The notes under the pieces: model-generated
Seen by the model: only the letters and a program-made list of their open reading frames with translations
Database searches by the model: none
What the model was told of the DNA's origin: nothing
Part shown: piece after piece, positions 1 to 25,150 of the stretch
How the letters are laid out: the number at the start of each line of letters is the position of its first letter
Position numbering within the stretch: the first letter of the stretch is position 1
Translations under genes and position numbers: made by a program
IMG/VR virus record: IMGVR_UViG_3300007513_000170
Coordinates: 1-27,232 of that record
Reading direction: 5' to 3' (one strand)
Length of the DNA stretch: 27,232 nt
Source: a virus

Positions 1-1451
1 TTGATTGTGATATCCCCTGCACTCATGGCATTGGTATTTGTGGTTAGTGTGTAGTTGGTAGTTACTGTTTGACCATTCTCATAGAACACTTCATCTGTAC
101 CACCGCCTGTTGCACCACCGCCTGATGGTGTTGCCCATGATAATGAACCTGCTGTTGCCCCTGCTGTCAGCACCTTTTCATTATTGGTAGTACCTGTAGC
201 AGGAACATGAAGGTTTCCATCGCCTGTTGGATGGGAATAAGTGGTGATTGATGACCATGCAGTACCGTTATAATAAAACAGCGTATTGCTTGTTGTATTG
301 AAATACAGATCACCTTCATCATTACTGGTGGCTGGCTCTGTTGCAACAACACGGTAACGGTCAGCAAATGAGTTAATACCTGTGATGTTATCTGCACAAG
401 TATCCATATTGGTTACGTTAGCAGTTGTGCCAAGGGTGTTCATATCAGCAACGATGTCTGCTGTTGCCAGAGTATTCATATCAGCAACCACATCAGCAGT
501 TGCTAGAGTATTCATGTCTGCAACAATGTCTGCCGTGGCAAGTGTGTTCATGTCAGCCACGACATCAGCGGTAGCTAAGACATTCATATCTGCCACTACA
601 TCGGCTGTACCAAGAGTATTAAGGTCTGAAACTACATCTGCTGTGGCTAACGTATTCATATCTGCTACAACATCAGTGGTTCCTAGAATTGCCATATCAG
701 CAACCGCATCAGCAGTACCTAACCTGCCTATCTCTGTAGCCTTAGCTGCCACTGCACCAATATCTGTAGCGTCACCTGCTACTGCGGTTACATCACTGGA
801 GATACCTGCCACAGTCGTAACATTGCCAGAGACCCCTGCAACCGTAGTCACATTCGAGGATATTCCAGCTACCGTCTGAATGGCATCCGTAGCATCTGTA
901 CCATCCTCAATGTCAGCCAGGGTAGCAATGTCGGCTGTGATTGCTGCCAAGCTAGATACATCTGCAATAGTTGGTCCTGCTTCAGGATCACCAGTAGTTG
1001 CATTAAAGCCTAAGACTGTCCCTGCTCTTGTTGTTTTTGCAGGAAGAGTTAGATCTGTATAAGTATCCCACTGGTCAACCTTCAAAGTTAGATTGTGATT
1101 CTGTTCGTTCTGTTGAGCCATCATCACGTTTTTATCGAGATCATCATTTAGCGTAGCTGCAAGAAGATCTCCGTTAGCCTGGTAATCAGATGTTCTTGAA
1201 ACCGCCATGTCTCGATAGATCGTGACAATATCACCAGATGATAAACCAGTGCCGAATACTATTGTTCCACCTGCGTCTGCGCCTGCTCCAGTAACCGTAT
1301 AATCAGTTGTTAGAGTCTTTAGTGTAGAACCAACATAAATCTTTAGGTCCGCATCCACAAAAACAGGGAACGAATAGGTAAACGTAGTCTGGCTCGCTGT
1401 AGCCGTGTATTGATTTCTAGGAGTAAGATCCCCTACTTGAATATGTGCCAT
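1..1451 (-). CDS. Tail fibre protein, T7 gp17-like N-terminus, 3' end outside window
   Basis: Host-recognition fibre; 483 codons are visible and the frame is still open at the left edge, so the receptor-binding tip is missing. The start ATG is preceded by an AGAGG ribosome site. Residues 1-120 resemble the T7-type tail-fibre N-terminal domain that docks on the tail (TTFTYSFPVFVDADLKIYVG, then SSGDIVTIYRD). Residues 194-243 are five units of about 10 residues built on VAGISSNVTT, and 244-351 are nine 12-residue units built on LATADVVADMNT. A DLYFNTTSNTL...YNGTAW segment follows, common in phage fibres, then a Gly-rich linker. It is the last gene of the structural block, after the ejection proteins, as expected for a fibre. 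The N-terminal assignment is from family knowledge; the repeats are read directly. Confidence 0.88.
   Translation of the reverse strand, partial: MAHIQVGDLTPRNQYTATASQTTFTYSFPVFVDADLKIYVGSTLKTLTTDYTVTGAGADAGGTIVFGTGLSSGDIVTIYRDMAVSRTSDYQANGDLLAATLNDDLDKNVMMAQQNEQNHNLTLKVDQWDTYTDLTLPAKTTRAGTVLGFNATTGDPEAGPTIADVSSLAAITADIATLADIEDGTDATDAIQTVAGISSNVTTVAGVSGNVTTVAGISSDVTAVAGDATDIGAVAAKATEIGRLGTADAVADMAILGTTDVVADMNTLATADVVSDLNTLGTADVVADMNVLATADVVADMNTLATADIVADMNTLATADVVADMNTLATADIVADMNTLGTTANVTNMDTCADNITGINSFADRYRVVATEPATSNDEGDLYFNTTSNTLFYYNGTAWSSITTYSHPTGDGNLHVPATGTTNNEKVLTAGATAGSLSWATPSGGGATGGGTDEVFYENGQTVTTNYTLTTNTNAMSAGDITI
399..722 (-). repeat. Nine tandem 36-base units in the tail fibre gene
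   Basis: Nine consecutive 12-residue units (consensus LATADVVADMNT) in coding frame. The eight units nearest the start codon are close copies and the last (LGTTANVTNMDT) is degenerate. Third-codon positions differ between units, so the peptide is kept more strictly than the DNA. Probably a fibrous trimeric shaft; unit number could vary by recombination. Confidence 0.9.
723..872 (-). repeat. Five 30-base units encoding VAG-type decapeptides in the tail fibre
   Basis: Five 10-residue units starting with VAG or VAA (VAGISSNVTT, VAGVSGNVTT, VAGISSDVTA, then two diverged) directly precede the 12-residue array. The change from 10- to 12-residue period inside one shaft is visible in the translation. 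Such VAGI/NVTT repeats are common in phage fibres. Confidence 0.8.
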
Positions 1452-1492: not shown

Positions 1493-4105
1493 TTATTGTT
1501 GCAACCCTGTTAGTGCCTCCATTCTGAGCAAGTCTTGATGCTCTTGCTCTGCCTTTAATCCAGGGAACTCCTTGAGCAATTGATTCTTTGCTCCCATCCT
1601 AAACATATTGATAACGGAACGAATCATTACAGACCGTCCTCCATCTGGACCATCGGTTGCGTTCTCATATTCTGGAGAAGGAATTACCTTATGCTCCAGA
1701 TATTTTCTTAATCCATAGCCACTAGAAGGATCTTTGAATTCACCACCAGCAAGGACAACATAACGATCATATTCCTCTGCATTTAACTCGATTGCGAACC
1801 GTCCTGTTCCGATCCGCTTGGTTGGCATCCGAATGTCAATCTCATTCTCTACAATCTGTTGATCTACGATATTAGGCTTCCATGTAGAAGAGTAGATTGG
1901 ACTGACGAAATCCCATCCAAGACCACCCTCAAGAATAACAGGCTCTCCCCAAAGGTTTCTGCGTGGCATTAGATCCTCTGATAACCCTGGCGTTCTTCCC
2001 CTGATCTCATCCATGATGTCATAAGTTGCTCTCATGGTTGGATCAAATTGACGCTCGATCTGAGCCGTTAGAGAAGTCATTGGAGTCCATGTTGCTGACT
2101 GTCTCTGAATGTATCGCTCCATGTAACGATCTGGATCATCCATAGCCGCTAGGAATTCAGACAATCCCCTTAGATAAGTCCTGGAAGTAAGGTTTTTAGC
2201 AAGCGCAAGAGAGGCAGCAGTGGCAATCTGTGTGCGATCCTCATCACTCTCTGCGTACTTCATTGTCTCCACCACATCAGCAGACAATCCTAAGAACATA
2301 CCTAGTGGATCAAGACGGTTAAAGGAGTGGTACTTGTCGCCTACCTTCATGGAGTATGGTTGCCACCCCTGTCTACGCATAGCATCCCTCTGACCCTTGT
2401 TGGAAGGACCACCACCTGTAATCTGCCCCTCAGAAGCCATCATTACACCTACAGACATCACAAGTGACCCCATAGACATTCTCGCTAGGGCAAGATCTCT
2501 ACGTGCGCCACCAGCCTGTATATCGGCTCTGATAGACTTCGAGAACACTCCTAATGGAGTACGCTCTCCAACAAACTTAACAATGTTCACTGGAGTACGA
2601 ACAAAGGGAATAAGGAGCTTCAGTGCAGGATGACTATTAGCCAACCTCTGTACTTGTTGACCTGACTCCCCAAGAGGCTTAGTGAATGTCTGATAACGAC
2701 CTGCCTCTAATGCTCCAAGGTGGATTTCCTCTGGAGGCTTGTTCATAATATCAACAATGCGCTCTGCTAGTTCGTCACCCTCAAGACCTTCTCCAACAGC
2801 CTTGCGATAGGCAAGAGCATTAAGCTCCATCCGATAACCGATAGTCTTGAACAACTCATCCTCTGCCGTAAGGAAACGACCTGGAATACGAAGAGCCTCG
2901 CCAAGAAGATCAATGCCCTGTGCTAGATAGCCATTATCCGCAACAGTCTGAGGATTGACCCCCATTGCCTGACCCCACTTGGTTCCTGCAACACTCTCTG
3001 CTGTGATGTTACGGTAACGCTGTGATTCCAGTTTCATTGCTGGATCTGACGGCTCTCCTGTCTTTAGAGCCTTCCAGAACAAGCGAAGTCCATCTTTAGC
3101 ACCGTTAACAATGCCATACATCTGAGACAATGCCTCACCAATCTGGACACCCTCATGAGAGCGCATGACCTTTGAGATGTTGCCAGCAAGGAACCTCTCT
3201 GGAATTTGCCACACAGCAACCATAGCATTAGAGGTCATATTCACTGAATGAGTAGCAGGAGATGAGAGAAGTCCGTTAATCCAATACTCCAGGAGCATAT
3301 CTCCAGTAGTTGAGTGATATTGATCTCTCGCAATCTTGGATACTTCCTCAAGACTGTCAGCCTGATCGAATAGTTCAGCCATTTTGTAAGCCGCCTCTGG
3401 ACCACCACTTTGCTGTAGTGCTTCTTGGAGTTGTTGTGCTTGCACCCTTCCTCCGGCAGCAGGAATACGGAAGGCATTTAACGCCCTACCTGCCTCTGCT
3501 GTCATACCTGATACTTGTGCCTGTATCGCTGCATGTTGTGCCGCCATCTGACGAAAGGACAACATCTCTGCCGTACTAGCCTCTCCGCTTAAAATGCCCT
3601 TAGAGGCTGTCCTGAGCCGTTCTGCTGACTGAACTAGCATCTGTCTTGCTGAGGTAATCTGAGCGGCATTGAAGGCATCAGAAGGTTTACGACCCAATAG
3701 ATCCTCCAGGGAGAACTGTTCTGCCTCTTTTAGAGTCTCTTCATGGGTAACTGTACCTCTGCGCTCTCCAATGAACTGTGCTTCCTGCTCTCCAATGTCA
3801 TCAATTACTTGCATGACATCATCCGTGGTATCGAGATAATCAAAGTTGATATTACGAGATTCAGGATCATAGGCAGATGGACGACCCATCTCTACTTCAC
3901 GCTCTGGAGTAGTAAGAAGCTCCTCTGCTCTTTCCTCTGGAATTGCGGGGATTTCTCTCTCTGATACAGGAGGCTTCTCTCTTGGCTTAACCACTCTGCG
4001 GAATGGTGCTGCCGATGCAACCTGCAACGGCTCTTCTGGAGCCATAGTCTGTGCGGTTAGATCCTGCACTGTTTGATCTAGGTCAATTTGCTGATTGAGT
4101 GCCAT
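1493..4105 (-). CDS. Large internal virion / ejection protein (870 aa)
   Basis: Putative internal virion protein that leaves the capsid with the DNA. The call rests on position (between tail tubular genes and fibre, beside two more large helical proteins) and on motifs I associate with large phage virion and polyvalent proteins. These are an Ala/Gln-rich helical stretch with AEAGRAL near 204-209, SSPATHSVN near 281-289, and HPALKLLIPFVRTPVNIVK near 492-510. A hydrophobic helix (MSMGSLVMSVGVMMA, about 543-557) follows and could touch membrane. The first 80 residues are Pro/Glu-rich and probably disordered. No lysozyme or transglycosylase motif was found. The ATG directly follows the TAA of the upstream gene, so translation is coupled. 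Family type fairly sure; biochemical role unknown. Confidence 0.7.
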   Translation of the reverse strand: MALNQQIDLDQTVQDLTAQTMAPEEPLQVASAAPFRRVVKPREKPPVSEREIPAIPEERAEELLTTPEREVEMGRPSAYDPESRNINFDYLDTTDDVMQVIDDIGEQEAQFIGERRGTVTHEETLKEAEQFSLEDLLGRKPSDAFNAAQITSARQMLVQSAERLRTASKGILSGEASTAEMLSFRQMAAQHAAIQAQVSGMTAEAGRALNAFRIPAAGGRVQAQQLQEALQQSGGPEAAYKMAELFDQADSLEEVSKIARDQYHSTTGDMLLEYWINGLLSSPATHSVNMTSNAMVAVWQIPERFLAGNISKVMRSHEGVQIGEALSQMYGIVNGAKDGLRLFWKALKTGEPSDPAMKLESQRYRNITAESVAGTKWGQAMGVNPQTVADNGYLAQGIDLLGEALRIPGRFLTAEDELFKTIGYRMELNALAYRKAVGEGLEGDELAERIVDIMNKPPEEIHLGALEAGRYQTFTKPLGESGQQVQRLANSHPALKLLIPFVRTPVNIVKFVGERTPLGVFSKSIRADIQAGGARRDLALARMSMGSLVMSVGVMMASEGQITGGGPSNKGQRDAMRRQGWQPYSMKVGDKYHSFNRLDPLGMFLGLSADVVETMKYAESDEDRTQIATAASLALAKNLTSRTYLRGLSEFLAAMDDPDRYMERYIQRQSATWTPMTSLTAQIERQFDPTMRATYDIMDEIRGRTPGLSEDLMPRRNLWGEPVILEGGLGWDFVSPIYSSTWKPNIVDQQIVENEIDIRMPTKRIGTGRFAIELNAEEYDRYVVLAGGEFKDPSSGYGLRKYLEHKVIPSPEYENATDGPDGGRSVMIRSVINMFRMGAKNQLLKEFPGLKAEQEHQDLLRMEALTGLQQ

Positions 4106-7100
4106 TTAATTTGCCTTGTTCCAGATGTCGGTGAGTTGTTGCTTGGTCAAATCTTTATGTCCACCTGGTCTATATCCCCATTCTTGTAAACTATTTGCAT
4201 CTGTAAATAGATCCTTTGCCTTAACTTTTTTACTTAAAATTATAGGCTTTCCTTTTTCCATACCTTCTAATACCGATTCCCCATGACTTTGAGCATATTC
4301 TTTTGTAATTGAAACCCAATCCCCAGGTAAAATCTCTTGTGGGTCGCCAGGAAGAACTGACCTATAAACAGTTACTTCTGCATCAGGTTTCCCTTTTAAT
4401 GATTGAATTATTTTTACACCTTTTGCATCGCTATCAAATCCTTGACCAAAATATCTCAAGGCATTAGGTGTATACATATCATCGCCAAACATTTCAGTTA
4501 CATCGTCTAAACTTGCCCCATAGTCTGCATCAGGGGGTCTATGTATATTGTTTATCCTTTGAACAAACTCCTCCGCACTATCATACTTCTTAGCTTCTTC
4601 AATAAGTGGGTCTGCTTTGCTCTTACCTTTCTGGATAATATCTCCAGTTTTTCCAATGACATGAACTTCATCTAAAGCAGGAGAGGTTGTTGGCAATCCT
4701 CCTGGGCGAAATGCCGGACCAGACTCAACTTCTAGCTCTTTATCAAGATCAGGACTTCTCTTTCTCCGCTCCTCTTTAGAAAGGCTACTCCTTCTTTGGA
4801 CGGTTCTGGCTTCAATTTCTCCTGCGAGATTTCTATAGACTTTTTCGGCATAGAAAGGATCGTTAATGTTCGCTTCAAGATCATCAATCTGTTTGCCGAG
4901 CTTTTTTGAGAAATTGCCTTCATCCGAGACTTTATCCAATTCACGGACATACGCTCGATAAATTGACTTCCATTGCCTTGGGTCTGCCTCAATTGCAGAC
5001 ACATAATGTTCAATGTTTGGAGTTGATTCGATTTCAAGATTTATTTTGTCGATATAGAATCTCGCAACATTTCGCAACCACTCCGCCCTTTCCTCTTTTG
5101 GTCTGTGACGTTTCGGCTGAACTCCGAAAAGATCATTGATCTTATAATGATACTTATGCCAAAGAGCGTTATTCCGGATGAATCTTGCCTGTCTTGTTGG
5201 TTCGTCATATTCCAAGAACCTCTCAAAGAATCGTCTTTGATCCATCATTGACCAAGCACGGAGTTTCTTTAATTGGTAATTCATTTTTCGTTCTGCCTCA
5301 ATTAGAGGCGCACGCTGTGCTTTCTTAGCCCTAGAAACAACCTCAACCGCTGTCTTTGATGAGCCACCTTGAGCAAGGTTGTCTATGTCCTGGATTCCAT
5401 GCTGTAACTCATGGAGCAATACACTATTAACCCCGTCTGGACTCAGATCTGTACCTAATGCAATGACCTTTCTCGCTGGATCATAGTATCCTCCACGAAA
5501 GCCAGCATCAGCATCAAATATGACACTTACATCTTTGAGGGTTGGATATATCTTGTATAGCTCTGGATAATCCAATACCTCTCCTACCGTACTATACACC
5601 CGTCCAGAATCATTTTTCATCCACACCTTGTTTTCAACAAACTGGTCTACACCAACGCCACCTGTTGCGTATGGTCTGGAGCCTGCTCTATGCTGGAAAT
5701 ACTGCAAAGCATCCTCAAGAGTGGCTTCCTTAACGGGAACAGTAAGTGACGCTCCGTTTGGATCCATCCAAGCATATTGATAAGGATTCCCCTGGGAATC
5801 ATCTATAATGTGAATCTGATCTGGATATACGGTAAGCGGTCTGTGTTTTGGAGTTATCTTGTGCTGCACTTGAGAATCGTCCATCTCAAAACGCCAAACC
5901 CCTTCATCTCCACGAATTAGTCCTGTTTGTTCCCAAATCTCATCACGGGATGCGCCCCCCTCTTCCAAGGATTTTGCATCTTCCAGAACATTTGCAGATT
6001 TTCTAACCTCTTTCTTGAAGTCTCTCCTTGCGAGATGAGCAATAAGACTTTCTTTTGCATCCTGTTCTGATCTACCAAAAGCAGTTAACCCGTATTCTTC
6101 ATCATTAAACTTGGCGGCAATCAACCCTCCCTCTCTTTCAGAGAAAGTGACTTTGCCCTCTATTCTTCTGGATATATCCTCAATGCGCTCTGGAGCATCA
6201 TGAGGAACAGCCTCATGCTCTGCTCTTACGGTCATACTGCGATCCTCAGCAGAACCAAATAGCTTAGACTCCATTGGAGCATCTTTAACGACACCACCTG
6301 TCGCCATTTCAGTACCTTTATCTAGGAAATCTCTGATTGCTGGACCCCAATCCGCTCTCTTGGCTGCCCTAAACCCTGCAACAACAGCAGGAAGTACGAC
6401 ACCAAGACCTGCACCCTCTAGGATGTTCTTGGCTCTACCCTCCAGTTTCGCAAAGGTATCAGCATCTTCTCCAACCTTACTATCCAGATATTGAGTGAGA
6501 GAGTTATCAACATCTAATTCACGGAGCAGTGTGGATAAGTTGCCGTATTCTGGATCAAACAGGACATCAGCAATGCTGCCTGCCTTGACCTGTTTAAGCA
6601 TGGACGCACCCTTACTCATGCCTCCGGCAGCACCAAAGACTGAGAAGAACTGTGAGAAGCCCCTAATTACTTCTTGAGCCTGTGTGCCTTCATCCATAAT
6701 GGACGGAACACGCAATGGTTCTGCGCCCTCTGGAAGGCTCTCAGAGAAGTCTATGCCCTCTGGACCCCATGTTATGTAAGGTGCGCCTAGAGCCTCATTT
6801 AACTCTTCTCCAAGACTTAGAACGCCATTGGGTGCATCTACTAGAACGCCCTGGGCAACTGCTTCTGGAACCGGACTCTCTACAAAAGGACGGGCAATGT
6901 CACCAACAATATCCTCTATCGTTCCACGAAGATCTGCATCCCTGTCTCTCTGAGGGTTTAGAATATCTAACACTCTATCAACCATGCCACGTTCAGGAAC
7001 TTCCTGTGCTGGTTGCTCTCCCTCTGGAGGAGGAGGTGGCATTAGGTACTCCTTGCTCCCTGGAGCAATTAGATCTTGTGGAACCTCCACCCAATCCATA

Positions 7101-7483
7101 GATGGCTCTGGCTGTGGAGTATGTTTCTGAATGATCTGTCCAGCAGGACCATAGTTGAACTGACGAACCTCATAACGTCTATTGTAATCCTCTGTGAAGT
7201 CATCAGATCCCTCTGCATCTTCTCCAACAACGGCTGCCCCAACGATTGCAGTCTTACCTGCCTGCCTGCCTATCTTCTTGTTGATTAAGCGATTCTGTTC
7301 ACTGGCACTAGGACTTGGACCACGATCTTCCATCACGCCCCACTCCCTCAACTCTCTATCGGTCATCCTGTTAGGATCTCTAGGGAGATAGCGTTCTCCA
7401 GTACCGCCATCCTCTTTAGGCAAGCCATACTTGTAACCCGTTAGATCACTGCCGAAATCTGGTTTTCCAAAACGTCCAGCCAT
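4106..7483 (-). CDS. Polyvalent virion protein: metallopeptidase-like plus ADP-ribosyltransferase-like domains (1125 aa)
   Basis: Probable ejected virion protein with effector domains. Residues 1-380 are low-complexity, Pro/Glu-rich and helical (GFSQFFSVFGAAGGM near 275-289). Residues about 610-900 contain a zincin-type HELQHGIQ (691-698), followed by YRNLAGEIEAR (883-892), whose Glu is a candidate third zinc ligand. Residues about 1005-1105 look like an R-S-E ADP-ribosyltransferase: VTVYRSV (Arg1041), PGDWVSITKEYAQSHG (Ser1058) and LQEWGYRPG (Glu1101). The pairing fits the polyvalent-protein concept for phage virion proteins. The ATG overlaps the upstream stop by one base (TAATG). DNA for the last 190 residues or so is much more AT-rich than the rest. 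Domains are inferred from motifs; activity is untested. Confidence 0.75.
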   Translation of the reverse strand: MAGRFGKPDFGSDLTGYKYGLPKEDGGTGERYLPRDPNRMTDRELREWGVMEDRGPSPSASEQNRLINKKIGRQAGKTAIVGAAVVGEDAEGSDDFTEDYNRRYEVRQFNYGPAGQIIQKHTPQPEPSMDWVEVPQDLIAPGSKEYLMPPPPPEGEQPAQEVPERGMVDRVLDILNPQRDRDADLRGTIEDIVGDIARPFVESPVPEAVAQGVLVDAPNGVLSLGEELNEALGAPYITWGPEGIDFSESLPEGAEPLRVPSIMDEGTQAQEVIRGFSQFFSVFGAAGGMSKGASMLKQVKAGSIADVLFDPEYGNLSTLLRELDVDNSLTQYLDSKVGEDADTFAKLEGRAKNILEGAGLGVVLPAVVAGFRAAKRADWGPAIRDFLDKGTEMATGGVVKDAPMESKLFGSAEDRSMTVRAEHEAVPHDAPERIEDISRRIEGKVTFSEREGGLIAAKFNDEEYGLTAFGRSEQDAKESLIAHLARRDFKKEVRKSANVLEDAKSLEEGGASRDEIWEQTGLIRGDEGVWRFEMDDSQVQHKITPKHRPLTVYPDQIHIIDDSQGNPYQYAWMDPNGASLTVPVKEATLEDALQYFQHRAGSRPYATGGVGVDQFVENKVWMKNDSGRVYSTVGEVLDYPELYKIYPTLKDVSVIFDADAGFRGGYYDPARKVIALGTDLSPDGVNSVLLHELQHGIQDIDNLAQGGSSKTAVEVVSRAKKAQRAPLIEAERKMNYQLKKLRAWSMMDQRRFFERFLEYDEPTRQARFIRNNALWHKYHYKINDLFGVQPKRHRPKEERAEWLRNVARFYIDKINLEIESTPNIEHYVSAIEADPRQWKSIYRAYVRELDKVSDEGNFSKKLGKQIDDLEANINDPFYAEKVYRNLAGEIEARTVQRRSSLSKEERRKRSPDLDKELEVESGPAFRPGGLPTTSPALDEVHVIGKTGDIIQKGKSKADPLIEEAKKYDSAEEFVQRINNIHRPPDADYGASLDDVTEMFGDDMYTPNALRYFGQGFDSDAKGVKIIQSLKGKPDAEVTVYRSVLPGDPQEILPGDWVSITKEYAQSHGESVLEGMEKGKPIILSKKVKAKDLFTDANSLQEWGYRPGGHKDLTKQQLTDIWNKAN

Positions 7484-9078
7484 TATCTTGCTTTCCTTGC
7501 TTTCCAGGACTCACGATACGCCTCTAATCGCTTAGATCTAGCGTTAAAGGTATCCATATCGTTACTTGCGTTTGCATTTTCCAGAAGCCATTGCTCTGTT
7601 GCTTCCCAATCAGGATTCTCATCAGTGCCTAACAACCAAGCTGGTTTCGATGCTCTGACCGCTTGCTTCTTGGCGTACTTACCTTTAATCTCATCAATGA
7701 TCTCTAGTGGTTTCTCACCATCGAGTACACGCCTGTATAGCTCTCTGTTAGCCTGAGAGATACGTGTCTGCTCTTCTGTATCAAAGGCAGCCATTGGTCC
7801 TGTAGTCTGAAACTCTCTCTTGATTTCATCAATGGCAATCTTCCAATCAGGAGATCTTGTGACATCTTGCAATGATCCAGTACGGATCTCAGACAACATT
7901 GCCCTCATGGTATCTGTGGTTAGCAGACCATCCTTACGAGCCTCTACAATTGCCTGACGGGTAATACTGTCATCAACAGATGGGTCAAACATGAATTCCC
8001 AAAGATTAGCCTCTGTATCTGGATCATCAGTAAATGCCTCTCCCTTCTTGAGAGCCTTGAGAAGATCTACATAGCCTTTCTCGCTAATCATCTTCTCAGA
8101 ACGCCATTGATTCAGTTGATAGCGGAACTGTTCTGGAGTGAACTGCTGATTGAATAATGCCTCTAGCATTGTTGTTTCGTTTACTTCCTGGTCTGCTTTA
8201 AGTTGGTTAGTCTCATCCTTCTCTAAGCGAGTCTGATGTTTATCCCAATCATTATAGAGATCTTCCATTCTCTTTAGGGCATCACTCCTGGCATCTTCGG
8301 AAATACCTAATTCTTTGGCACTAGCGAAGTCCTGCATGAATTCCCAACCACGACCTTCCTCTAATTCCTTGTTGAAGCCAGCAACATAAGTGACGACATC
8401 TATTTCATCGTAATAATCTTGAAGCCTCTCCTGAGCCTTAGTTGCAGAGAGCAAATTGGATTGAACCGCAATACCCATTGCCTCTGCGTATTCCTGCTGT
8501 TTAAGTGCTACGAAGTCTGTGCGACCCTGACGGATAGCGTCATAAGTCTCGATCTCTAAGGCTCCAAGAGCGGTATTAGTATTTGCTAACGCTTCATCCA
8601 GTACCTTCTCTTTGTGATTCTTTAGGATGGTTGCGCTATGGATGACTCCATATTCACGATACTTGCGCTCTGCAATCACCCGTATCTCTGGAGACTGAAT
8701 GCCATTCAGAGTACCTTTCAGTGCTGCATCAAACTCGTTCTGGAATCCCTCTGGATCATACTGATACTTAGCCGCAATCTCTCCAACTGCGCCCTTAGCT
8801 TCAAGACCTACGCTTGCGGCATAGCTTGTTACGGCAGCACGGTTATATGCAAGATCCGCAATGGTATATCCCCCTTTAAGGGTTGGTGCGCCTTTTGCGC
8901 CCTCTAGGGTTCCAAGTGTCTTGAACTTCTCTTCTGTCTCTATGTCTGCGAGCTGACTCATCTGCTGAGAGAATCGTCCAAGAGTATTGGATAAAGTCTG
9001 CCACGCTTGAGCTTGGGAGGTATCTACACGCCCTGTCTGCCTTCCTTGTCGGAATTGATATTGTGGTAGTTCTGGCAT
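7483..9078 (-). CDS. Internal virion protein, helical, T7 gp15-like position (531 aa)
   Basis: Predicted ejection-apparatus protein. It lies directly after the gp14-like gene, where T7 has gene 15, and overlaps both neighbours by about one base (TGATG and TAATG). The sequence is nearly all helix-forming and charged, with long Glu/Lys/Gln runs (e.g. 255-300) and no signal peptide or catalytic motif that I recognise. The N-terminus (MPELPQYQFRQGRQTGRVDT) is polar, followed by an amphipathic segment ending TEEKFKTLGTLEG; the last 20 residues are strongly basic (SWKARKAR). T7 gp15 is longer (about 750 aa), so similarity is in position and character only. Confidence 0.65.
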   Translation of the reverse strand: MPELPQYQFRQGRQTGRVDTSQAQAWQTLSNTLGRFSQQMSQLADIETEEKFKTLGTLEGAKGAPTLKGGYTIADLAYNRAAVTSYAASVGLEAKGAVGEIAAKYQYDPEGFQNEFDAALKGTLNGIQSPEIRVIAERKYREYGVIHSATILKNHKEKVLDEALANTNTALGALEIETYDAIRQGRTDFVALKQQEYAEAMGIAVQSNLLSATKAQERLQDYYDEIDVVTYVAGFNKELEEGRGWEFMQDFASAKELGISEDARSDALKRMEDLYNDWDKHQTRLEKDETNQLKADQEVNETTMLEALFNQQFTPEQFRYQLNQWRSEKMISEKGYVDLLKALKKGEAFTDDPDTEANLWEFMFDPSVDDSITRQAIVEARKDGLLTTDTMRAMLSEIRTGSLQDVTRSPDWKIAIDEIKREFQTTGPMAAFDTEEQTRISQANRELYRRVLDGEKPLEIIDEIKGKYAKKQAVRASKPAWLLGTDENPDWEATEQWLLENANASNDMDTFNARSKRLEAYRESWKARKAR

Positions 9079-9668
9079 CAGACTAGCCCACCTCTACGTG
9101 TCTGACTCACTCCGTAATCAAGTCCTGCCCCAACTGCCCCCATAAACCCTTGAGCCATTGCAGACTTGCCAGCAAGGTTCAAGCGTGCTAATTCAGTTCT
9201 AGTATTATAAAGATCTGCTCCACGCTCCAACTGATAATTCCGCATAGACTCCATGCCGATAGTTGCAGGTGATCCCTCGAACGGAGAAATGCCTCTAGTT
9301 GAGAATGTTAGCCTCTGTGCTGCTAGGGTATGCCTGAGTGTTTTTAATCTTTGGAGTTCACGATCCTTGGCTGCCTGTTCCGCTTGTTCCGCTTGGATAG
9401 CGTACTGTTGTTTCTGCGCTCTTCCTGCTTGCATTGCAGATAGACCTTGACCTAGTGCGCTCATGCCCTGCCACATTCCAGAACTTAATCCAAGAAAGCC
9501 TCCTGCCGCTGGCATCATTCCTGCCGATGTAAGAGCAGATACCGAAGATACCCCAACTACAGGAGCAGATAATACTGTTCCAGCACCAAACAATGTTCCT
9601 CCTGCCGCCGCCCCTGCCGCCGCCGTTCCCGCTGCCGTTGCCCCTGCTGCTGGTAATAAAAATGACAT
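9078..9668 (-). CDS. Internal virion protein, T7 gp14-like (196 aa)
   Basis: Small virion protein expected to be expelled first and inserted in the host envelope. I chose the ATG at 9668 rather than a TTG nine codons upstream because AGGATAAGG lies just before it and the TTG lies inside the upstream gene. Residues 1-75 are Ala/Gly-rich and hydrophobic (LLPAAGATAAGTAAAGAAAGG), able to insert in membrane; 80-125 form a charged coiled-coil; then RGISPFEGSPATIGMESM and a Gly/Ala-rich C-terminus. This hydrophobic-plus-coiled-coil design, length and position match gp14-type proteins (T7 gp14 is 196 aa). Confidence 0.75.
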   Translation of the reverse strand: MSFLLPAAGATAAGTAAAGAAAGGTLFGAGTVLSAPVVGVSSVSALTSAGMMPAAGGFLGLSSGMWQGMSALGQGLSAMQAGRAQKQQYAIQAEQAEQAAKDRELQRLKTLRHTLAAQRLTFSTRGISPFEGSPATIGMESMRNYQLERGADLYNTRTELARLNLAGKSAMAQGFMGAVGAGLDYGVSQTRRGGLV

Positions 9669-9672
9669 AACC

Positions 9673-11619
9673 TTATCCTGTTGCCTGAACCTCAAGAGTG
9701 ACTCCCAATAGAGTCATTGGAAGAGGATCTTGTTGTGTGATTGTTACTTGTGCTGTTCTTGAATATCCTAATAGGGGGGTTTCCTTAATCCCTGAGAACT
9801 CCACTGGAGCAGCACCCAAAACACCTGTGCCTAATGAACGATCTGCTAACTCCTTTCCGTCAATATAAACACCTGTGGAATTGTGAAGAACTGCTGTAGC
9901 TCTAACTATTCTTCTCCTCCTGGTGCGAATAGGACCGGAACCATAGTTGAGATTAACTGGCATCGTCTTGATTGTGGGATTGAAGTTTAATCCTACCTCA
10001 ATACTGGATGCGGTACGAGAGAGCGTAATGGAGCCACCAGAAGGCGTAGCGTTTGCCATAACAGCACCATCAGCCTTTACTCTACACTCCTCTCCGTTAA
10101 GATGAGAGAGTCCTGATACGGTAGCACTGGCTGGACTATTCGTTACGATCTTACCTGCATCAGTGTAGTAATCATGATCTAGTGCCTCCACATGATAAAC
10201 AGTCGAACCGTTGATGGTTCTTTGAATATAGAAGTAAGGAATGTCCTCAACTACAGCCACATCCTTGAAACTTCCAGTGGTTGAATACTTTGCCCAGGCT
10301 GTTACCTCTTCTGCTCGGTTGGTATTCAGTACGGCAGCAGAGCCATCTCCATTCACTACATAGAGATAATTGCCTTCATTGGTAGTGTCTCCAGATTGAC
10401 CAGACATCGAAACAGGACTGCTAATTAGATGTGGAGCAAGAAGATTAACCTCTGTGGATACATAACTATCCTCCGTATAGGTAAAGAGGAACTCCCTTAA
10501 TTGCTTCCCATTGCCCTGGATGAACATGGTAGCACCGTCTATATTAAGAGGTCTTACGTTGTCCATTGATCCAAATCTGGTCTGACGTGAGACTCCGATA
10601 CTTGAAGGCTTTAATGGAGAACCGGAAGCATAGAATTCGCCCCCCGTTGTGAAGATCTGTAAGTGCCTGCCAGACACAAGATGCTTTACAGCATTAACCT
10701 GATCGGTATCCATTGTGACATCAATGCCGTCTGAATCATCTCCAATACCACGATCAAAATTCCAGAAATCTCCCAAGACAGAACCCCACAGTGTTTGTGG
10801 TCTGCTAGTTGAGTTCGACAGCCATAGTCGTGACTCATGGAAGGTGACTGCTCCAGGATAACCATGCTCGGATGTCCATACAGGCTCCTCTAATGAGGCA
10901 TCAGATCCAGAAATTGATGAATTGCTAGAGAACTCTTGAAGGATCTTTCCTGTAAATACGGTTGATGAGGTATAGCCTGTGATCCTGACAATGCCACCAT
11001 TGCCTTCAAACATTCCTCCGTTATGCTCGCTAGTTACAGGAGAAGCACCAGAACAAGTGATCGTTACAGTATCACCAACTACAGGAGAAGAAGGACTTAT
11101 TGAAAAGCTACCAGAATCATAATCTCGATTAAAATCGTAAGTTGGCTCGTACGGAAAAGATATAGTGGCAAGAGTCCATGTGGAATGAGAGCCGCCCCTA
11201 GTTATTGTTCTTGGCGCAACAGCATTATGCACGACAATTAACGTATCAGCACTCTGCGTCCAATCCATCTCTTGAATCTGTGCTGTAGTCCAAGGAGTAA
11301 CTAGATAATTATTGCCTGTACCGTTGATATTGGTCTGCAAAACTCCGTCTTTGTACACATACATTTTTGCATTTACAAAGATTAAAAGGTAGGTCTGAGT
11401 TGTTGAGAACTCGAATGTAACCATTCGCACTGTCGATTCAGTATGAGTGGATACATAACGCAATCCTGGTCTACGCTTAATCCCCCCCTGGGGAAGGCAT
11501 ATCACGTTGGTTAGAGTCTCAGCACCCTTATAATAACCATCATAATCATGACGGGCAGTTAGACGCGGATCTAACTCACCAGCCGTAAATGATGTTTGCG
11601 CTGATATAGTGCGTGGCAT
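9673..11619 (-). CDS. Tail tubular protein B / nozzle protein (gp12-like, 648 aa)
   Basis: Forms the distal nozzle of the short tail tube. The N-terminus is diagnostic for this family in T7-like and marine podoviruses: TSFTAGELDPRLTARHDYDGYYKGAETLTNV and CLPQGGIKRRPGLRYV (residues 9-57), followed by a beta-rich body with EEPVW, GYPGAVTFHESRLW and YVSTEVNLLAPHL. T7 gp12 is 794 aa, so this is a shorter version. The start ATG overlaps the TGA of tail tubular protein A (TGATG), and a gp14-like gene follows four bases after its stop, the normal order. Confidence 0.92.
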   Translation of the reverse strand: MPRTISAQTSFTAGELDPRLTARHDYDGYYKGAETLTNVICLPQGGIKRRPGLRYVSTHTESTVRMVTFEFSTTQTYLLIFVNAKMYVYKDGVLQTNINGTGNNYLVTPWTTAQIQEMDWTQSADTLIVVHNAVAPRTITRGGSHSTWTLATISFPYEPTYDFNRDYDSGSFSISPSSPVVGDTVTITCSGASPVTSEHNGGMFEGNGGIVRITGYTSSTVFTGKILQEFSSNSSISGSDASLEEPVWTSEHGYPGAVTFHESRLWLSNSTSRPQTLWGSVLGDFWNFDRGIGDDSDGIDVTMDTDQVNAVKHLVSGRHLQIFTTGGEFYASGSPLKPSSIGVSRQTRFGSMDNVRPLNIDGATMFIQGNGKQLREFLFTYTEDSYVSTEVNLLAPHLISSPVSMSGQSGDTTNEGNYLYVVNGDGSAAVLNTNRAEEVTAWAKYSTTGSFKDVAVVEDIPYFYIQRTINGSTVYHVEALDHDYYTDAGKIVTNSPASATVSGLSHLNGEECRVKADGAVMANATPSGGSITLSRTASSIEVGLNFNPTIKTMPVNLNYGSGPIRTRRRRIVRATAVLHNSTGVYIDGKELADRSLGTGVLGAAPVEFSGIKETPLLGYSRTAQVTITQQDPLPMTLLGVTLEVQATG

Positions 11620-18948: not shown

Positions 18949-20274
18949 TCAAGATTGAAGTTCAATCCTCTCTCCTATCCATTTCATTACTGGAACTGCC
19001 ATGCTGTTGCCTAACGCTTTGTATCGTGGCGAATTAGGACAGCTCTCTTCTGGCTTTCCTCGAAACGGAATCCTTGTGTAGTTATCTGGAAAGCCTTGTA
19101 ATCTTTCACACTCAATTGGAGTTAGCCTTCTTACTTGCATTTTTTGTGCAATACCTATCCCACCTTGATTTTTTGACGGGCATGGAGTTGTCGTATCCAA
19201 ACACCTTGCAGTCTCAACTTCTCTACACCCTGAATAGGGGTTAGATGATTTCATTGAATTTGAAGAGAGAGCGTCAAAACTAAACGCTACAACATGTTTA
19301 TCTCCTGCCGTTAGTGTTGGAGCAGGATCACCTGCCTTACCAATGCCTAAGCCATTACCAGAACCCTTGCCTGTTATGCCTTTGTGTCTGGTTGCCTTGT
19401 CTTGAATAGGATAAACAACGCTTGGAGGAACAATGCCTCCACCCCCGTTTGCTCTTAATGCTCCGCATACTTCTTCACCGATCTTTGGAGTTACATCAGC
19501 AATTACGCTATAGCAAATATCAGTAACATCCTTGTAATCTCTTGCCTTGATTGCAGATACAGTTCCATCTTCTATGTAATCTCCGAATCCCCGCATCCTT
19601 GCAGCAACGCCCCCTTCAACATTGGAGGCAAGATCTTCTCCCTCCTTTCTGCTCGGTTCAGAATTCCTCTGCAAGCCTTCTCGCTCAAGAAGTATCGGGG
19701 ATCTATCTCCCCACTCTCCAAAATCTGCGAGAGCAAAGATCCTTCTGCGTCTTTGTGGAACTCCGAACCACTGTGCGTCCAGCACACGCCATTCGAGGAA
19801 CCCGTCCTCTCCGATAGCAACTCCGGTATTCTTCCATCCTCCGGTCGGAACGCCCAATTTGCACCCTGCCATTTCTCCAACCACGACAGCAAAATCTCTT
19901 CCTTCGTTTGATGAGAAGGCTCCTGGTACGTTCTCCCATAATGCGAATCTGCATCCGCAGTGTTCTCTTGCCCATCGAATAATCCGCATTGCATCGTTAA
20001 AAAGTCCTGATCGTTCACCATCTAACCCCTTTCTCTTTCCTGCTACTGATAAATCCTGACATGGAGACCCAAAGACAACTAGATCAATTTGACCTAGATT
20101 CTTCACATCTTTCTCTGTGATCTTTGTTACATCCCCCAGATTGGGAATGTCTGGATAATGATGTTGAAGTACCGCTGATGGAAACTGATCGAACTCGCAA
20201 TAAGCCACCGCCTCCCAATCCTTCCACGCCACTGAACATGCCTCGATTCCTGAGAACAAAGATAGATACCTCAC
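18949..20274 (-). CDS. DNA (cytosine-5) methyltransferase, orphan (441 aa)
   Basis: Transfers methyl from S-adenosylmethionine to cytosine C5. Motif I LSLFSGIEACSVAW (4-17), motif IV with catalytic Cys72 in GSPCQDLSVAGKRKGL, motif VI ALWENVPGAFS (Glu114), motif VIII QWFGVPQRRRRIF (168-180), motif IX LTPIECERLQGFPDNYT and motif X KALGNSMAVPV. The target-recognition region (about 185-380) is long and holds repeated phage-type blocks (SAIKARDYKD, CGALRANGGGG, PTLTAGDKHVVAF, ETARCLDTTTPC), as in multispecific phage enzymes. Start is a GTG overlapping the upstream TGA. No restriction partner is nearby, so an anti-restriction role is likely. Confidence 0.93.
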   Translation of the reverse strand: MRYLSLFSGIEACSVAWKDWEAVAYCEFDQFPSAVLQHHYPDIPNLGDVTKITEKDVKNLGQIDLVVFGSPCQDLSVAGKRKGLDGERSGLFNDAMRIIRWAREHCGCRFALWENVPGAFSSNEGRDFAVVVGEMAGCKLGVPTGGWKNTGVAIGEDGFLEWRVLDAQWFGVPQRRRRIFALADFGEWGDRSPILLEREGLQRNSEPSRKEGEDLASNVEGGVAARMRGFGDYIEDGTVSAIKARDYKDVTDICYSVIADVTPKIGEEVCGALRANGGGGIVPPSVVYPIQDKATRHKGITGKGSGNGLGIGKAGDPAPTLTAGDKHVVAFSFDALSSNSMKSSNPYSGCREVETARCLDTTTPCPSKNQGGIGIAQKMQVRRLTPIECERLQGFPDNYTRIPFRGKPEESCPNSPRYKALGNSMAVPVMKWIGERIELQS

Positions 20275-24370: not shown

Positions 24371-24690
24371 GCAAGATGGGCGAATATATACGAGAAAAAA
24401 TGGAGATCGAAATGGTCGATTCTGTAGATGAACTGGAGGATGTTAAGAATGGAATGGGGGATGGTTTTGGGGGGAATGATAGTAATGGGAGTTATGGCTG
24501 TATTGATACTGATTCAGATAGCCAGAAGATGTTGCAAGAGGGAGATCCCTCATTGTGGATCACGTTAGAAGATCATGGAGATCTGGTTGAGATCAGAGAG
24601 GGTTCGTTCTCTATGATCCTGACCTCGAAACAGGTAGAACATCTGCACTTTATGTTAGAGGTTTTGCTGAGGGAGAAAGGCAATGATTAG
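24367..24690 (+). CDS. Acidic protein with Gly/Asp/Ser linker (107 aa), unknown
   Basis: The ATG at 24367 has GGGAGG six bases upstream and overlaps the preceding stop (ATGA); an upstream TTG is less likely. The N-terminal helix (MGEYIREKMEIEMVDSVDEL) is followed by a low-complexity Gly/Asn/Asp/Ser linker (about 30-50). A compact C-terminal domain (PSLWITLEDHGDLVEIREGS, FSMILTSKQVEHLHFMLEVL) follows, whose beta-beta-helix look resembles small modulators. The protein is strongly acidic overall. No family recognised. Confidence 0.6.
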   Translation: MSKMGEYIREKMEIEMVDSVDELEDVKNGMGDGFGGNDSNGSYGCIDTDSDSQKMLQEGDPSLWITLEDHGDLVEIREGSFSMILTSKQVEHLHFMLEVLLREKGND

Positions 24691-25150
24691 GTTGGATCTG
24701 GAGCGTCCTTTCCCTATCAATAAGGTTCATTGGAGAGTGGGAGCCAGAACCAAGGACAAGAGCAGGGGCATAGCCTTAGCCTACATAGACGCTAGGGATG
24801 TTATGAAGCGTCTTGATGATGTTTGTGGTGTCGATGGATGGCAGAACAGATATACCCATGTAACGCCACAAGGAGTCGTCTGTGAGGTTGGGATCAGCCT
24901 TAATGGGGAATGGGTATGGAAGGCTAACGGAGCAGGAGAGACACAAGTAGAGGGTGAGAAGGGTGCTATGTCCGATGCCTTCAAAAGAGCAGGTGTTCAG
25001 TGGGGAATAGGAAGATACCTATATGCACTCCCTAATGTATGGGTAGAACTAGAGAGAGGCACGAAGATTATTGAGCCTCCAACGCTACCAACTTGGGCAA
25101 CGCCAGAAGGGTTCGACAAGATAATGGAGAACAAACATGATCCAGATTAA
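24683..25150 (+). CDS. Rad52-family single-strand annealing protein (155 aa)
   Basis: Recombinase that anneals complementary single strands in phage replication and repair. It matches the Rad52/Rad22 phage group: FPINKVHWRVGAR (10-22), ALAYIDARDVMKRLDDVCGVDGWQN (31-55), NGEWVWKANGAGET, and the strongly conserved EKGAMSDAFKRAGVQWGIGRYLY (about 91-113). Length fits phage members (about 150-200 aa), which lack the eukaryotic C-terminal half. The ATG overlaps the upstream gene; the exonuclease two genes on and the SSB-like protein complete a recombination set. Confidence 0.88.
   Translation: MIRLDLERPFPINKVHWRVGARTKDKSRGIALAYIDARDVMKRLDDVCGVDGWQNRYTHVTPQGVVCEVGISLNGEWVWKANGAGETQVEGEKGAMSDAFKRAGVQWGIGRYLYALPNVWVELERGTKIIEPPTLPTWATPEGFDKIMENKHDPD

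Follow-up and report, generated by a model that had tools for sequence, protein, structure and literature searches.

The window analysed here is a linear virus record of 27,232 bases (IMG/VR, IMGVR_UViG_3300007513_000170). It encodes P0001, a polyvalent protein of 1125 amino acids, in one open reading frame (ORF) that starts with ATG and occupies positions 4106..7483. A preliminary sequence-only reading had placed a 1125-residue protein here without giving a strand; the single ORF is confirmed and runs on the minus strand, from 7483 to 4106. P0001 qualifies as a polyvalent protein in that it joins several predicted enzymatic domains of unrelated kinds and its gene lies among the late virion genes, and with a probability of roughly two in three we interpret it as a polymorphic ejected polyvalent effector of a T7-like podovirus, carrying exchangeable cassettes. 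Residues 1-405 (6269..7483, minus strand) appear to form a constant region, with 99.3% DNA identity to the related contig L004 through residue 405, after which the DNA is unrelated (28%) and L004 switches to a module resembling the ADP-ribosyltransferase (ART) family ART-PolyVal, with an H-Y-D active site. Residues ~169-379 have matches in L034 and L045, in proteins encoded at the corresponding gene position, and a search for further relatives of the N-terminal region brought back the same three contigs and no others. Of the nearest contigs, L003 shares the architecture of P0001, and L002, which differs at 5 of the 1125 residues, continues past the terminal LTDIWNKAN into another linker. A constant N-terminus followed by variable downstream modules in close relatives (L004 and L002), as in polymorphic toxins, is thus present, at one-sided junctions near contig ends. 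Both module boundaries of P0001 (residue 405 and residues 960-1125) are sites where related phages carry other modules. The guanine-cytosine content of the cassette is 36.5% versus 49% in the N-terminal region, and the low cassette value fits recent acquisition.

The middle of the protein holds an LPD23 domain (residues 497-540; 5864..5995, minus strand; Pfam PF18838, E = 7.6e-12), which scores 45.3 bits against a Pfam gathering cut-off of 27 and is matched in 36 of 44 relatives. Beyond it lies a putative zincin metallopeptidase (residues ~615-915; 4739..5641, minus strand). The HELQHGIQ (691-698) and downstream GEIEAR pointed out in the sequence-only reading are both in place, and HExQH and GExEAR are invariant in the 44 aligned relatives, that is, H, E and H of the zinc-binding motif HELQH (residues 691-695; 5399..5413, minus strand) and G, E, A and R of GEIEAR (residues 888-893; 4805..4822, minus strand). 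The latter is the candidate third zinc ligand, whose glutamate (the E of GExEAR) would bind the metal. LPD23 and the HExxH/GExEAR region make up one recurrent module, with 256 confirmed loci in viral contigs, and residues 497-945 of P0001 correspond to LPD23 plus the putative zincin. Zincin-like peptidases occur in polyvalent proteins (PMC5512222), and DUF6782, a putative metallopeptidase family, is matched by 19 of the 44 relatives. We assign the region to the zincins because of the motif pair, the family matches and this published precedent. Two results weigh against the assignment: the DUF6782 match of P0001 itself is partial and below the family cut-off (E = 8.5e-5), and a Foldseek search with the AlphaFold2 (AF2) model of the region (m5468df30f0cf), whose core is confident, returned mainly coiled-coil proteins and no zincins, because long helices dominate the model and make the search uninformative. 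Of the HELQH metallopeptidase-like domain proposed earlier, the motifs and family matches stand, and the structure search did not recover a zincin fold. The proposed pairing of polyvalent-type domains is borne out by LPD23 above its cut-off, the zincin signature and the partial DUF6782 match.

The C-terminal R-S-E domain

The R-S-E-type ART-like domain spans residues 979-1109 (4157..4549, minus strand), with R1041 at 4361-4363, S1058 at 4310-4312 and E1101 at 4181-4183. The sequence-only reading had named Arg1041, Ser1058 and Glu1101 as an R-S-E set, and all three are found in their motifs, YRSV (1040-1043), WVSIT (1056-1060) and QEWGY (1100-1104). Among 96 distinct relatives, counted only where the alignment column is filled, R1041 is present in 81 of 81, E1101 in 73 of 73 and serine or threonine at 1058 in 76 of 79; H981 (68/68) and A1064 (77/77) are likewise invariant. 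R, [ST] and E occur jointly in 56 of the 58 distinct rows that span all three positions. The domain matches PHROG 2579 (E = 3e-26), labelled 'ParB C-terminal domain'; Pfam (P0001 and 37 members searched) and NCBIfam hold no family for it, and its profile found nothing among PDB sequences.

The AF2 model of the domain has a predicted local distance difference test score (pLDDT) of 90 and a predicted template modelling score (pTM) of 0.81. It places R in a first long strand and S at the end of a short second strand, followed by a helix, more strands and a late strand starting at E; the strand order R, S, E is that of the R-S-E ART fold. Approximately 11 of 49 matches in a Foldseek search of the PDB were ARTs, including ranks 1, 2, 4, 7, 8, 10 and 11 in an otherwise noisy search, and CDTa, Vis, ExoS, Tse6 and ART2.2 are among the top matches. 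In a profile comparison of the domain that included 150 decoy phage families, T4 ModB and ModA took ranks 1 and 2 of 151; the ART-PolyVal profile ranked 24 of 151. A comparison seeded with a divergent family member again put Mod at rank 1 (score 28, best decoy 19.9), with the alignment falling on the strand of the catalytic arginine and a probability of still only 24%. Against an ART fold stand the missing significance of the PDB matches to known ARTs (best E 0.4, probability at most 0.13, template modelling score 0.2-0.28) and the Mod hhalign probabilities of 2.5-24%, which are below significance. The fold is not proven because no comparison reaches significance; we nevertheless consider it quite probable that the C-terminal ~130 residues adopt it. 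The ADP-ribosyltransferase-like domain of the sequence-only reading is upheld by the conserved triad, the secondary-structure order and the prominence of R-S-E ARTs in the fold search, and lacks a significant match.

In polyvalent proteins, ARTs belong to the H-Y-D clade, and R-S-E ARTs of the Alt/VIP2 clade are absent from genuine polyvalent proteins (PMC5512222), while Alt/VIP2 and Mod are the common viral R-S-E families (PMC9503650). Because these surveys put polyvalent ARTs in H-Y-D and name Alt/VIP2 and Mod as the viral R-S-E families, the present family would be an addition, and, provided that it is an ART, the domain of P0001 would represent a previously undescribed R-S-E-type family. 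Two other identities were considered and rejected: ParB, the PHROG 2579 label, which Pfam does not support, as no ParB family was among the Pfam matches of 37 members, and ART-PolyVal (PF18760), as the triad is R-S/T-E and no PF18760 match was obtained.

About 70 loci with the domain were found in viral contig scans, in proteins of 129 to ~3000 amino acids. Vibrio phage VH7D and the Mycobacterium phages Pumpkin, Phabba and Colt encode it as a short gene of its own, and elsewhere it lies inside larger proteins. These stand-alone genes of cultured Vibrio and Mycobacterium phages (L007:2986-3423, L010:2983-3372, L008:2920-3414 and L011:2878-3501) are annotated as hypothetical or as 'ParB C-terminal domain', and that of VH7D is situated between regA and the DNA polymerase gene. 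A search of cultured phages and plasmids with a divergent member (C26) gave no match, and the bacterial species genomes yielded one relative, in a contig of a Sulfurimonas metagenome-assembled genome. Proteins in L014, L016, L020 and L022 combine both kinds, the R-S-E-type ART-like domain and H-Y-D ART-PolyVal, in a single polypeptide.

Brackets and cassette exchange

The sequence-only reading had missed that the ART-like domain is a bracketed cassette. It is preceded by a start bracket, LIEEAKKYDSAEEFV (residues 960-974; 4562..4606, minus strand), and followed by an end bracket, LTKQQLTDIWNKAN (residues 1112-1125; 4109..4150, minus strand). The corresponding tags are EEAKKYKSAEEFV for the start and KSQLTDIWNKA, also given as approximately KTKSQLTDIWNKA, for the end. 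Scanning viral contigs for the core TDIWN[KQ]A returned 103 stretches, most of them in large ORFs and in the context [K/T]SQLTDIWNKA. With tags identified by regular expression, 47 ORFs carried both, 4 the start tag only and 24 the end tag only; since the sample was chosen by the end tag, the numbers for the end tag alone are uninformative and it is the pairing that informs. The end tag lies 60-280 residues after the start tag in 47 of 68 tag pairs, and a new start tag appears less than 60 residues after an end tag in a further 9, so that 56 of 68 show the expected spacing overall. Modules found between brackets are the R-S-E-type ART-like domain, ART-PolyVal and GNAT, and others look, by reading of their sequences, ParB-like, phosphoribosyltransferase-like or nucleotidyltransferase-like.

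The brackets show a more uniform codon choice than would be predicted from the codon usage of their own ORFs (z = 8.9 for the start and 6.3 for the end, part of the latter being due to the degenerate DNA pattern used in finding the tag), against z = -0.6 to 3.6 for catalytic motifs in the same proteins. For lysine, AAG predominates in the start tag and AAA directly before the end-tag core. These patterns point to brackets conserved as DNA and not as protein alone, and are explained equally well by recent shared ancestry of the tags. The bracket pair had no convincing match in named phages and plasmids, a literature search for the end-bracket string returned none, and the bracket sequences were not found described in PMC5512222, where 'linker' occurs 0 times. 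In L079 (ORF 3903-6443), an insert of ~330 amino acids splits the ART-like domain between YRAVP and GDWVT, and an insert of ~50 amino acids is seen at the same point in several loci, for example L060 and L069-L074. An intein was rejected as an identity for the L079 insert, which carries bracket pieces and a phosphoribosyltransferase-like module.

Exchange of the bracketed segment can be followed directly in two comparisons. L229 and L261 share 978 nucleotides (nt) at 100%, then carry unrelated segments of 380 and 707 nt (L229:979-1358 and L261:9657-10363, end bracket oriented plus), and match again over 3889 nt at 97.4% from the end bracket. The second comparison sets L240 (and L214) against L246: the 237 nt leading to the start bracket (ARKFTSAEEF) are 99.6% identical, a ParB-like versus an ART-like module follows (swapped segments L240:4450-4724 and L246:238-905, end bracket oriented plus), and from the end bracket identity returns to 91-97%, with ~3.1 kb at 91%. 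The breakpoints fall within or beside the brackets and the reading frame is kept. At the level of sequence, these alignments show bracketed modules replaced cleanly between near-identical phages.

Placement among the ejection proteins

The local gene order is tailB-gp14-gp15-P0001-gp16-like-fibre. Upstream of P0001, a gp14-like internal virion protein (9078..9695, minus strand; PHROG 418, E = 1.2e-6) precedes a 531-residue protein (7483..9078, minus strand) that gene order assigns to the gp15 position, the place of internal virion protein C, and that has 26% identity with the same-position ORF in L034. The TAA stop codon of P0001 adjoins the ATG of the following gene, which encodes IVP870, an 870-residue gp16-like relative of internal virion protein D (1493..4105, minus strand; PHROG 6651, E = 1.2e-55); its relatives are found in 74 phage records, including Pelagibacter, Roseobacter, cyanophage and Desulfovibrio podoviruses. 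The location among ejection proteins that had been proposed for P0001 thus holds, between the gp15-position and gp16-like genes, and the placement is strengthened by L036 and L045, in which the ART-like domain and a gp16-like internal virion protein are fused in frame in the same ORF. In L034 and L047, a gene at P0001's position likewise holds the ART-like domain. ProddE, an isolated Desulfovibrio phage (Autographiviridae), has tail tubular B, spanin and internal virion proteins B, C and D followed by the fibre, with protein D encoded by one 1268-residue gene whose PHROG 6651 match starts at residue 646; P0001 would therefore occupy the place of the N-terminal part of protein D. No Pfam transglycosylase match was obtained in P0001 or in ProddE protein D. 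We infer, with good indirect support from this arrangement, that P0001 travels in the particle alongside the internal virion proteins and is ejected together with the DNA.

Among the minus-strand genes of the window are those for terminase, portal, scaffold, capsid, two tail tubular proteins, the gp14-like and gp15-position proteins, P0001, IVP870 and a tail-fibre-like protein. The last of these (window 3-1451, minus strand) contains a series of imperfect 'TADVVADMNTLA' repeats and has a weak Pfam LED_rpt match. Near the terminase genes lies a C-5 cytosine DNA methylase gene (window 18949-20274, minus strand; PF00145, E = 2e-41), possibly with an anti-restriction function. A Rad52/Rad22-type single-strand annealing protein is encoded at 24683..25150 on the plus strand (Pfam PF04098, E = 3.5e-20).

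Proposed mechanism, alternatives and significance

We propose that residues 1-405 would belong, as a constant region, to the ejection apparatus, that LPD23 with the zincin-like peptidase probably processes P0001 or a host target, and that the R-S-E-type ART-like cassette, whose fold is likely, is predicted to modify a host molecule early in infection. Cassettes would be exchanged by homologous or short-homology recombination at the brackets. Whether this extends to a phage-wide effector-exchange system appears evenly balanced to us: ejected polyvalent proteins would hold enzyme cassettes of ~80-240 amino acids between two DNA-conserved brackets and recombine at them, giving close relatives different injected arsenals, with the P0001 cassette as an undescribed R-S-E-type ART family. 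Two further points count against the overall account: L002 and L004 end ~90-411 nt beyond their one-sided junctions, so that assembly chimeras are possible there, and the phage's own Rad52-type annealase, perhaps the recombination agent, is plausible as a suggestion only.

Several other explanations were weighed. The C-terminal domain may be another small alpha/beta domain, the 'ParB C-terminal domain' of PHROG 2579, for instance a DNA- or peptidoglycan-binding ejection element, for which the PHROG name and the lack of a significant ART match by sequence or fold speak. We consider this rather unlikely, since the invariant R, E and H and the near-invariant S/T point to an active site, ParB is missing from the Pfam matches of 37 members, the fold search gives prominence to R-S-E ARTs, and the equivalent place in other cassettes is filled by an H-Y-D ART. 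P0001 could also be a structural ejection protein in which the zincin and ART-like modules are degenerate passengers, with the virion function residing in the gp16-like neighbour and the N-terminal region; in favour, neighbours of the T7 gp16 type are structural and the modules are freely gained and lost. Because conservation in both modules is highest at the putative catalytic residues, selection on activity can be argued, and this explanation seems improbable.

It is similarly doubtful that the modules serve virion maturation and not host attack, with the zincin cleaving polyvalent proteins in the head, possibly at the brackets. Zincin processing has been proposed by Iyer and colleagues (PMC5512222) and the brackets fall exactly between modules, yet this zincin is present in just 2 of 72 end-bracket ORFs, and the bracket can therefore not be explained simply as the site that it cuts; cleavage by the fused zincin was rejected as its role. 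Least probable, in our estimation, is that the apparent cassette swaps are artefacts, chimeras made when assembly joined different sequences at short stretches that they share. All the sequences concerned are metagenome contigs and L002 and L004 end shortly past their junctions, but in L229/L261 and in L240/L246 the swapped segment has matching sequence on either side and the contigs come from different samples, L214 repeats the arrangement of L240, the frame is kept, and two independent false joins would be needed for each swap.

P0001, as a proposed ejected effector with exchangeable cassettes, shares with the polyvalent proteins of Iyer et al. 2017 (PMC5512222) its unrelated predicted enzymatic domains, the combination of a zincin-like peptidase with an ART-like module, an LPD domain and a late virion gene, and differs in that their ARTs are H-Y-D and its own domain is R-S/T-E. 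Likewise, ART-PolyVal (PF18760) fills equivalent cassettes, following a P0001-like N-terminal region in L004, but it has an H-Y-D (H-Y-[DEQ]) active site and no profile similarity to the P0001 domain. In the MuF polymorphic toxins (Jamet et al. 2017, PMC5576092), which temperate phages encode, a constant virion-associated N-terminus is likewise combined with variable C-terminal effectors, whereas P0001 is a T7-like ejection protein without MuF, and its modules, which can be internal, are framed by two recurrent brackets conserved as DNA. Relative to T7 gp16 (internal virion protein D), of which IVP870 is a relative, P0001 stands at the place of the N-terminal part and carries effector modules instead of a transglycosylase match. 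T4 Alt is carried in the virion and injected. Alt, ModA and ModB share the R-S-E triad with the P0001 domain, and the Mod profiles are its best profile matches, but there is no significant sequence similarity and the P0001-type domain is much shorter; it also differs in occurring both alone (129-160 amino acids) and within large proteins.

If this account is correct, the ejection proteins of podoviruses would be a delivery device for interchangeable enzymes, beyond a conduit for DNA. The brackets would provide a sequence handle by which many cassettes, unknown enzymes included, could be found with a simple search. An uncatalogued ART-like family would be added, directly testable in the Vibrio and Mycobacterium phages in culture that encode it as a stand-alone gene, and the strain-level reshuffling of early host-takeover functions would become testable.

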